A DNA stretch of 64,000 nucleotides from Halosimplex litoreum (GTDB taxonomy: Archaea > Halobacteriota > Halobacteria > Halobacteriales > Haloarculaceae), in the NCBI RefSeq assembly GCF_016065055.1, contig NZ_CP065856.1:62001-126000 (forward strand), written 5' to 3'. The notes beneath the pieces were generated by a model. The model was not told the DNA's origin. It saw only the letters and a list, made by a program, of their open reading frames with translations, and made no database searches. This document shows, piece by piece, positions 10,269 to 38,780 of this stretch (positions are counted from its first letter, which is position 1; each line of letters starts with the position of its first letter). Made by a program: the position numbers and the translations under genes.

Positions 10269-10302
10269 GATCGGCTTAATCGTTACGCCACCATCTTTTT
10301 CC

Positions 10303-10350
10303 CGGTGGGGTTTCCTCGCCCGCTTCGCTCGCTGCGGGAACCCCACCGGC
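10303..10350. repeat. Inverted repeat, 14-base arms
   Basis: CCGGTGGGGTTTCC (10303-10316) pairs with GGGAACCCCACCGG (10337-10350), with at least 11 contiguous bases perfect. It is flanked by T-rich and A-rich runs (CTTTTTC before, CAAAAAC after), so in either direction a U-rich stretch follows the stem. It could be a terminator-like or cruciform element. Confidence 0.7.
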
Positions 10351-10371
10351 AAAAACATGGGTGAAAAAGGC

Positions 10372-10396
10372 CGCTCGCGCCGCCGGCGCGAGCGGT
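10372..10396. repeat. Perfect 11-bp hairpin
   Basis: CCGCTCGCGCC (10372-10382) and GGCGCGAGCGG (10386-10396) are exact complements around a 3-base loop. It is the second of a run of stems that leads into the dispersed repeat. Confidence 0.75.
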
Positions 10397-10424
10397 GAAC
10401 CGCGCTCACTGCGTTCGCGCGGAT

Positions 10425-10726
10425 GCTCAGTACAGCTGAGAGACTGATCAATCCACCGTGGCGCGCGCTGTCGCGACTCTTGTGTCGCGACAGCATCGTG
10501 CGAGGGATGAGCGAACGGAGTGAGCGAATCGGCTGGGGAGGCTCGTGGCCGTCTGCGGTGCTGTGCCTGGCGGACTGAAAGGGCGAGGCGCGCTCGCGCC
10601 GTGAGTCGCCTGAGCGGGCACTATCCGCGCGGGCGGTGCCGAGAGCGCGGATATCCCGTCTCAGCGACCGCGAGCGCGCCTCGCCCTTTCATCGCTTGCT
10701 GTCACCAGCGAGTGCGGTTGCTGTCG
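10425..10726 (+). repeat. Dispersed structured repeat, copy A
   Basis: About 300 bp, matching the reverse complement of 23530-23949. Identical blocks are 10449-10476 (28 bases) and 10497-10563 (67 bases). Copy A contains a 10-bp stem (10467-10476 with 10485-10494). It also has a large palindrome whose 23-base outer arms pair perfectly (10576-10598 with 10669-10691), enclosing further stems: CTGAG/CTCAG, CGGG/CCCG and ATCCGCGC/GCGCGGAT. It is either a structured RNA or a palindromic mobile repeat; see findings. Confidence 0.85.
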
Positions 10727-10859
10727 TGTCTGTTTCTTTCACGAGGTATTTGACTGGAACGATAGCTCAACTCACACAAAAAACCGACCAACACAGACGT
10801 CTACCGAGGACCGAATGCGGGGGGTTGGAGCCAAGATAGGCCCCAGCGTCGTAGTCGAG

Positions 10860-23416: not shown

Positions 23417-23529
23417 GGGATCGGTTGGTGGTCCGAACGGAAAGGTGTCGGGTCGAGGTTCGCGAGCGGTCAGTTCGCGTGCTCACTTATCGGTTGGTTC
23501 CGGTTGTACTGGAGCGAAACGAAGTCGAG

Positions 23530-23949
23530 CGACAGCGACCGCACTCACCGGGGACAGCAGGCGATGGCCGCCCTCGACGCGCTCGCGGTCGCTGCGGCGG
23601 ATATTCTCGCTCCGCTCGAATAGTGCCGCCGCAGACGACTGAACTGCACGCGAGCGCACCTCGCCCGTTCAGTCCACCAGGAGAGCAAGCTCCGCTGAGC
23701 CCTCGTTCGCTCCACTCACGAGGACGCCAGGACCGCACAGCACCATGACCGCCGCGCGCAGCACCGCAGACGGCCACGAGCCTCCCCAGCCGATTCGCTC
23801 ACTCCGTTCGCTCATCCCTCGCACGGTGCTGGCGCGTCTGGCGAGATCGAAGCTCTCGCTAACCCTCGTTCGCTGCGCTCACGAGAAAGACGAGACTCGC
23901 GACAGCGCGCGCCACGGTGGATTGCTATCTCTCTCACCTGTACTGAGCA
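23530..23949 (-). repeat. Dispersed structured repeat, copy B
   Basis: Reverse-strand match to 10425-10726. The 67-base core (23759-23825) and the 28-base block (23897-23924) are identical to copy A. It is about 118 bp longer because two related hairpin inserts (23850-23885 and 23687-23723) enlarge positions that are short loops in copy A. The inner stem differs from copy A but still pairs: CTGCGGCGG at 23592-23600 with CCGCCGCAG at 23626-23634. Confidence 0.85.
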
Positions 23950-38000: not shown

Positions 38001-38780
38001 ATGAACCCGAGCCGCGTCGACTCGATCGTCGACCTGTCCTACGGGCTGCTGATCGCCGTCTCGGTCGGACTCATCATGGTCGCCGGCAACACCGTCGGCC
38101 TGGCGTTCGGGTTCGGCGTCCTCATCTCGTATCTGATCCACGTGGTCTGGAAGATGGCCCGGTTCGACCCCGACTGGATGACCACCGCGGTCAAAGAGAC
38201 GGTCGAGGAGACCGTCGACGAGACCGTGGAAGCGAAAGTCGGCGAGACCGTCGAAGAGACCGTCGAGGAGACGGTGGACGAGACCGTCGGCAGCTCCGTC
38301 GACGAAACCGTCGAGAAAACCGTCGAAGCGACTGTCGGTGAAACGGTCGAAGAGACGGTGGGCGAAACCGTCGAGGAGACCGTCGGCGAAACCGTCGAGG
38401 AGACCGTCGAGGAGACCGTAGAAGCGAAAGTCGGCGAGACCGTCGAAGAGACCGTCGAGAAGACGGTCACCGATACCGTCGAGGAGACCGTCGGCGAAAC
38501 GGTCGAGGAGACCGTCGAAGAGAAGGTCGGCGAAACGGTCGAAGAGAAGGTCGGCGAAACGGTCGAAGAGACTGTCGAGGAGACAGTCGAGGAAACGGTC
38601 GAAGAGAAGGTCGGAGAGACCGTGGAGGAGACCGTCGGTGAAACCGTCGAGGAGACCGTCGGTGATACCGTCGAGGAGACGGTCGAAGAGACCCTGGAGG
38701 AACGGCTCGAGGCGGTCGAGAGCGAGGGCGATGAATCCGACAAGGAGTCGGAGCGATCGGCCGACGACGGGGATCGCTGA
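38001..38780 (+). CDS. Membrane-anchored protein with strict four-residue (xxTV) repeats
   Basis: 259 residues. Residues 12-52 hold two hydrophobic helices (LSYGLLIAVSVGLIMVAG, and LAFGFGVLISYLIHVVW). From residue 64 to 228 a Val occurs at every fourth position without exception (42 in a row), then Leu at 232 and 236. Spacer residues are nearly always Glu-Thr, Gly-Glu-Thr or Glu-Glu-Thr. An acidic tail ends the protein. The DNA is a degenerate 12-bp repeat with varied synonymous codons, so the protein pattern is selected or ancient. Its stop overlaps the next start (TGATG), coupling it to the PiT phosphate transporter. Function unknown; a cytoplasmic stalk or lid for the transporter is an inference. 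Confidence 0.85.
   Translation: MNPSRVDSIVDLSYGLLIAVSVGLIMVAGNTVGLAFGFGVLISYLIHVVWKMARFDPDWMTTAVKETVEETVDETVEAKVGETVEETVEETVDETVGSSVDETVEKTVEATVGETVEETVGETVEETVGETVEETVEETVEAKVGETVEETVEKTVTDTVEETVGETVEETVEEKVGETVEEKVGETVEETVEETVEETVEEKVGETVEETVGETVEETVGDTVEETVEETLEERLEAVESEGDESDKESERSADDGDR

Follow-up and report, generated by a model that had tools for sequence, protein, structure and literature searches.

To our knowledge, few structured RNA families of the haloarchaea display class-wide covariation other than rRNA, tRNA, SRP RNA, RNase P RNA and the omega-RNAs. The HEARO RNA is both structured and mobile, and many of its copies lack an ORF, and in the BOX repeats of bacteria the boxB module is reiterated in tandem. 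Haloarchaeal MITEs and small mobile repeats have been described in Haloquadratum walsbyi, where distinct families are defined by their terminal repeats (PMC3119063), and the omega-RNAs of IS200/IS605 elements have a haloarchaeal representative in the sotRNA (RF02656 and RF02657; PMC12558985). Here we report on two related intergenic repeats, copies A and B, located in a 64,000-nucleotide stretch of the Halosimplex litoreum genome (hereafter the window). The original prediction offered two alternatives, namely that of a structured RNA and that of a mobile element of palindromic make-up; the evidence supports both at once, with covariation and strand specificity pointing to the former and site turnover and the IS6-type ends of relatives to the latter. 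On the strength of sequence comparisons, we consider it probable (roughly 60%) that A and B belong to a haloarchaea-wide family of non-autonomous intergenic mobile repeats, in the body of which one strand is under selection for an RNA-like fold.

Like the MITEs of H. walsbyi, the elements are short, non-coding, present in multiple copies, devoid of a transposase and subject to turnover between related genomes, and in some relatives they carry inverted-repeat ends with an 8-bp duplication; unlike these MITEs, their interior is a class-wide, strand-specific covarying fold and their ends have decayed in Halosimplex. With the bacterial BOX, ERIC and REP repeats they share an intergenic, dispersed and modular organisation, the formation of stem-loops and the tandem reiteration of one module, whereas they differ in being archaeal, about 350–470 nt in size, subject to class-wide compensatory evolution and wholesale hairpin exchange, and without any sequence relation to these repeats. 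As in the case of the IS200/IS605 omega-RNAs, a putative structured RNA is tied to haloarchaeal mobile DNA; in contrast to the omega-RNAs, the copies have neither an Rfam match nor a tnpB neighbour, and their ends are not IS605-like. In its workings the family may resemble the HEARO RNA, in that a structured RNA would itself be the dispersed mobile unit, although an Rfam match and a recurrent protein gene nearby are both lacking. By analogy, the elements may operate in the manner of MITEs or BOX repeats whose body is an RNA, without clear membership in any named family.

Copies A and B share identical blocks of 28 nt (10449–10476 in A, 23924–23897 in B) and 67 nt (10497–10563 in A, 23825–23759 in B), and both contain the CACTAT motif (position 10619 of copy A; position 23625, minus strand, of copy B). 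In copy A the outer stem (10576–10598 with 10669–10691) is perfectly paired (23/23 bp), as is a small stem formed by 10467–10476 and 10485–10494 (10/10 bp). All the measurable claims of the original prediction regarding these blocks and stems hold to the base; the end given for copy A (10726) was too short, as the related sequence spans approximately 10425–10777, and the perfect 23-bp outer stem is peculiar to A rather than a feature of the family. The similarity between the two copies, which reaches 94% across 88 nt, 88% across 60 nt and 79% across 71 nt, is far beyond chance. As predicted, neither is protein-coding: both are intergenic, and the family as a whole has no conserved frame, its anchor-to-anchor length ranging from 215 to 413 nt with differences that are not divisible by 3.

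Copy A lies on the plus strand, its approximate ends being GCTCAGTACAG (5′) and CTCAACTCACAC (3′). Its 5′ end (10425–10459, starting CTCAGTACAG) is a diverged, terminal-repeat-like sequence found in many, not all, copies. It is followed by P1 (10462–10502), in which 10462–10467 pairs with 10497–10502; in 28 copies all of the P1 cells (100%) are paired, and one-sided changes lead only to G-U. P1 encloses hairpin H1 (10467–10494), a 10-bp stem in A that is replaced by several unrelated hairpins in other copies. The conserved sequence TGCGAGGGAT (10499–10508) precedes hairpin H2 (10509–10530, GAGCGAACGGAGTGAGCGAATC), which is likewise swapped wholesale elsewhere, and the conserved GGCTGGGGAGG block then leads into a G/GCGGT-rich linker of variable length ending in CCTGGCGGAC (10531–10575 together). 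The 3′ rod domain (10576–10691), the part modelled as R1 and on which the class-wide matches rest, comprises the outer stem and an inner stem CTGAGCGGG/CCCGTCTCAG around CACTAT..ATAT; the 3′ tail occupies 10692–10777. In copy B (23480–23949, minus strand) both H1 and the linker have gained additional hairpins, and its rod domain (23582–23671, minus strand) holds a different inner stem, CTGCGGCGG/CCGCCGCAG, around the same CACTAT..ATAT. A second dispersed repeat abuts copy A directly on its 5′ side (window 10290–10430) and reads CCATCTTTTT-hairpin-AAAAACATGGGTGAAAAAGG-hairpin-GTGAACCG-hairpin-CGGATGCT; this CCATCTTTTT..CGGATGCT module also precedes L044, L045, L053, both copies in L054, and L093.

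Reading of some 60 copies revealed a common anatomy. The 5′ half consists of an optional end (TCAGTACAGGTGA..), GGCGCGYGCTG, H1, YGCGAGGGAT and H2, the middle of AATCGGYTGGGGAGG..CGTGGCYGTCTGCGG, the G-rich linker of variable length and CCTGGYGGACTGAAAGGGCGAGG. From the outside in, the rod is built of CGCGCTCGCG/CGCGAGCGCG, GTCG/CGAC, CTGAGCGGG/CCCGCTCAG, CACTAT/ATAT and an apical hairpin, and downstream of it follow YCGAGGGCTTTC and the tail. Copies from across the class fill the frame CCTGGYGGACTGAAAGGGCGAG..CGAGGGCTTTC with either the type I apex found here or a type II apex, GAACCCCGACGACGCAAGCACYGCAG..CGCGCAGCGAGTCGCGGGA. H1 and H2 each come in several sequence types that are unrelated to one another and that mostly pair well, and some copies harbour further inserted hairpins; even at orthologous sites of congeners, such as L060 and L086, unrelated hairpins may sit on a retained core. 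The common fold, that is P1 with H1, H2 and the long rod with its conserved internal loops, is kept by compensation and by wholesale hairpin replacement. The family 3′ arm, together with the stretch that follows it, makes up a unit of about 57 nt (57–60 nt) that is often reiterated in tandem, as observed at L054, L063, L066, L061, L168 and L112, which belong to different genera. In other genera the element often occurs as divergent pairs at a spacing of no more than a few hundred nt, so that the two together make up a larger composite palindrome (L109, L154, L165, L172, L182, L183, L189, L193, L194, L201 and L204), and a CGGGGAAGGGCAGG motif lies near some of these pairs.

The window belongs to a genome assembled as a single contig of 4,158,049 bases, in which BLAST and pattern searches detected about 45 copies. 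With a covariance model built on the 3′ domain the number rises to about 62, the opposite-strand match of copy A being excluded. The proposed search of haloarchaeal genomes for further copies, using this model, confirmed a dispersed family: relatives were found in 98 of 146 genomes (16 of 22 genera) of a family-level sample and in 119 of 391 genomes (43 of 86 genera) of a class-level sample, with carriers including Haloparvum, Halonotius, Halorussus, Natronolimnohabitans, Halomicrococcus, Halobacterium, Halapricum and Natronomonas. In a phylum-wide sample of 295 genomes, matches were restricted to 16 genomes of the one haloarchaeal order, and none occurred outside of it. Some genera have only 1–6 copies. 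An exact-pattern scan of the IMG/VR viral contigs gave no match, phage records gave none either, and only nine haloarchaeal plasmids carry partial matches; a virus-borne repeat was rejected on these grounds. The low-copy genus g6 (L122–L131) was considered as a source of a single-copy ancestral RNA, a candidate that was rejected because its copies, few per genome, form a related but different sub-family with another 5′ half (GTGAGCCAGCATCCCGCGCGGCC...GGGACTGAAAGGGGCACGCCGCTGGCG).

The claim that the stems change in sequence and yet continue to pair was borne out beyond both shuffled and slid-structure controls. For 28 Halosimplex copies aligned with plain MAFFT without structural guidance (alignment A1), the structure predicted from that alignment pairs 97.3% of cells over 66 pairs, compared to 26–45% when the structure is slid, and 14 pairs show two-sided changes versus 4.5 in shuffles. 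For 112 distinct copies from across the class (alignment A3), which were fitted to the model and thus lean towards the structure, 95.2% of cells are paired (slid controls 29–43%), two-sided changes occur in 35 of 39 pairs and 390 cells are changed on both sides versus 60.6 in shuffles; none of 500 shuffles reached the observed value on any measure. For copies with the type II apex, in the same frame, 19 of the 33 pairs in a structure predicted from their own alignment (A4), which leans towards structure for that reason, are compensated on both sides. The shuffles do not keep relatedness, and these counts are therefore not to be read as probabilities. An alternative stem, GACTGAA/..AGTC, gave no covariation signal (z −1.6).

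The mispairs that do occur are strongly asymmetric. On the element strand of the other genera, G·T mispairs outnumber A·C mispairs by 43 to 5 (p = 1.4e-8), and the ratio is 33:4 both in A1 (P1, H1 and rod of Halosimplex) and in A4 (type II). A palindrome acting as double-stranded DNA would be expected to accumulate both in equal numbers, hence it is one strand that folds, either as RNA or as one DNA strand whose polarity is fixed. Consensus folding is likewise stronger for the element strand than for its complement, and the non-complementary bases of the internal loops (GG/GG, GA/GA and CAC/T) are kept class-wide while the surrounding stems change. So, selection acts on one strand, as it would for an RNA, with the proviso that folding of single-stranded DNA would equally favour G-T over A-C.

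These observations bear directly on the notion that the family is a DNA-level repeat of the REP/BOX/ERIC type, in which intergenic cruciforms act as DNA, by nucleoid or topoisomerase binding or by recombination, and the arms are kept complementary mainly by hairpin-templated mutation and gene conversion, not by RNA selection. This proposal accounts for an oddity of copy A, the 3′ arm of which (10669–10691, GCGCGCCTCGCCCTTTC) is unlike the family arm GCGCGYCGAGGGCTTTC and is the exact complement of the 5′ arm of A, as if by hairpin-templated (quasi-palindrome) correction. The hairpins are moreover of the GNA-loop type common in haloarchaea, the copies have no preferred orientation relative to neighbouring genes (codirectional 13 versus 11, convergent 22, divergent 13), and the cores of orthologous copies are no closer to each other than those of paralogous copies (ranks 5–14 of 17), which indicates homogenisation by gene conversion, or replacement. 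The family arm GCGCGYCGAGGGCTTTC leaves a conserved GG/GG and tandem-GA internal loop, however, and templated correction would erase such mismatched loops instead of conserving them across the class; the strand-specific excess of G-T over A-C and the weaker fold of the complement also argue against this proposal, and we regard a purely DNA-level repeat as unlikely. The absence of an orientation bias also led us to reject a 3′UTR element of the neighbouring genes.

Evidence for mobility comes from a comparison of sites between species. Ten Halosimplex loci were placed by both of their flanks in 1.6 Mb of a congener (G006); the element is present at four of them (decayed at one) and absent from six, one of which retains a remnant of the 5′ end, GGTCAGTACAGGTGGTGT. 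Direct comparison of species showed six additional pairs of sites that are wholly or partly orthologous. Among the copies of distant relatives, several end in IS6-type terminal inverted repeats, GGNNNTGTTCAGATA, flanked by 8-bp target duplications that match at 8/8 positions in L213 and at 7/8 in L155, L185 and L211, a flank total that was matched by only 1 of 5000 shuffles. Both IS6-type ends are present in only 9 of 141 scanned frames, not all of them convincing. The GGNNNTGTTCAGATA termini are identical to the ends of Halosimplex IS6 elements, while some of the Halosimplex copies possess only diverged inverted ends, TGTTCAGTACAGG / TGTTCGGTACGG, and no convincing target duplications were found beside the Halosimplex copies, the intergenic flanks of which have diverged. 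The mobile-element signature that had been called for is seen in some distant relatives, as duplications and IS6-type ends; in the Halosimplex copies only its diverged inverted ends were found, and these in some copies.

The genome that contains the window has no match to PF13610 (IS6), whereas four congeners have 13, 8, 5 and 4. The Halosimplex congeners studied overall include H. pelagicum R2 (G003), H. salinum (G004), H. aquaticum (G005) and H. carlsbadense (G007). A Y1 transposase is found once in the window genome and 0–2 times per genome overall. Given the decayed ends, the lack of duplications in Halosimplex and the lack of IS6 in this genome, the resident copies are probably old. Mobilisation by an IS200/IS605 (Y1) enzyme was rejected because copies occur in H. 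aquaticum, which has no Y1_Tnp match. The same absence, together with the inverted ends and target duplications of relatives, speaks against a PATE or other IS605-derived repeat, and, with an element size of about 350–470 nt, against REP/BIME sequences, which are palindromes of 20–40 nt linked to the Y1-type RAYT. Ordinary MITEs, that is internal remnants of known insertion sequences whose structure is a by-product, could explain the IS6-type ends and 8-bp duplications of some relatives; since the interior is common to 43 genera while the ends differ, shows no similarity to a transposase gene and contains 390 two-sided compensated cells that chance structure would not be expected to yield, we consider this reading very improbable.

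No transposase gene and no recurrent protein neighbour accompanies the copies at 60 loci, from which 1803 ORFs were clustered: the two large clusters comprise spurious frames inside the element, and the others are small and cover at most 5 loci. The outcomes named beforehand as contrary to the original prediction did not occur, as the arms do not vary at random and the copies have no transposase gene beside them. No Rfam 15 family matches the copies, and a scan of the window at gathering thresholds returned nothing; permissive scans gave weak matches only, mostly of microRNA type. The sot/omega-RNA models RF02656 and RF02657 matched no copy, the lone match of this type being weak and about 2.4 kb away from the copy in L213, and in the light of this and of the missing protein neighbour the copies do not fit a haloarchaeal omega-RNA. 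No tRNA was found, and box C/D, bulge-helix-bulge and kink-turn motifs, judged by eye, do not fit, GATGA being absent from many copies and the loop geometry unsuitable. A search of Rfam and of open-licence literature found no description of the repeat family.

The strongly conserved single-stranded blocks, the class-wide covariation and the restriction to 1–6 copies in some genera are also what one would anticipate of a functional RNA, encoded by the cell or by an element, with a protein partner acting in trans, of which the copies would be RNA-only members (compare HEARO and the IscB/TnpB omega-RNAs). Since no protein gene recurs beside the copies at the 60 loci, no Rfam family matches (RF02656 and RF02657 included) and the 5′ halves are divergent, such an RNA seems rather improbable. 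A broader proposal, which we put forward only tentatively, is that of a new class of archaeal mobile structured RNA, in which the fold would be the functional unit, selfish or domesticated, distributed class-wide with exchangeable hairpins and possibly served by a protein in trans.

Returning to the reading of the family as mobile repeats with an RNA-like body, a DDE transposase from IS6-type insertion sequences would insert the copies in trans, or would once have done so, and gene conversion would homogenise them. The folding strand would most likely be transcribed, by read-through or from a start of its own, and the target of selection would be a compact rod-and-hairpin domain of the transcript. 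Such a self-contained domain might make insertions tolerable to neighbouring transcripts, or it might be bound by a protein of the host or of the element. Against this reading, the window genome lacks an IS6 match and has a single Y1 transposase, such that no present mobiliser is visible, and in Halosimplex the termini amount to no more than diverged inverted repeats that lack target duplications.

The family numbers dozens of copies per genome, combines a single frame with two types of apex and is without a counterpart in Rfam 15. It readily lends itself to testing whether selection can act on the RNA fold of a mobile repeat. The orthologues of congeners, with unrelated hairpins on the same core, furthermore amount to a natural experiment in module exchange, and the family would explain a part of the 'palindromic' intergenic sequence in the haloarchaeal genomes that carry it. 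Elsewhere in the window, positions 38140–38730 contain an array of 12-bp-periodic repeats (TCGAGGAGACCG), which probably codes for a repetitive acidic protein segment.
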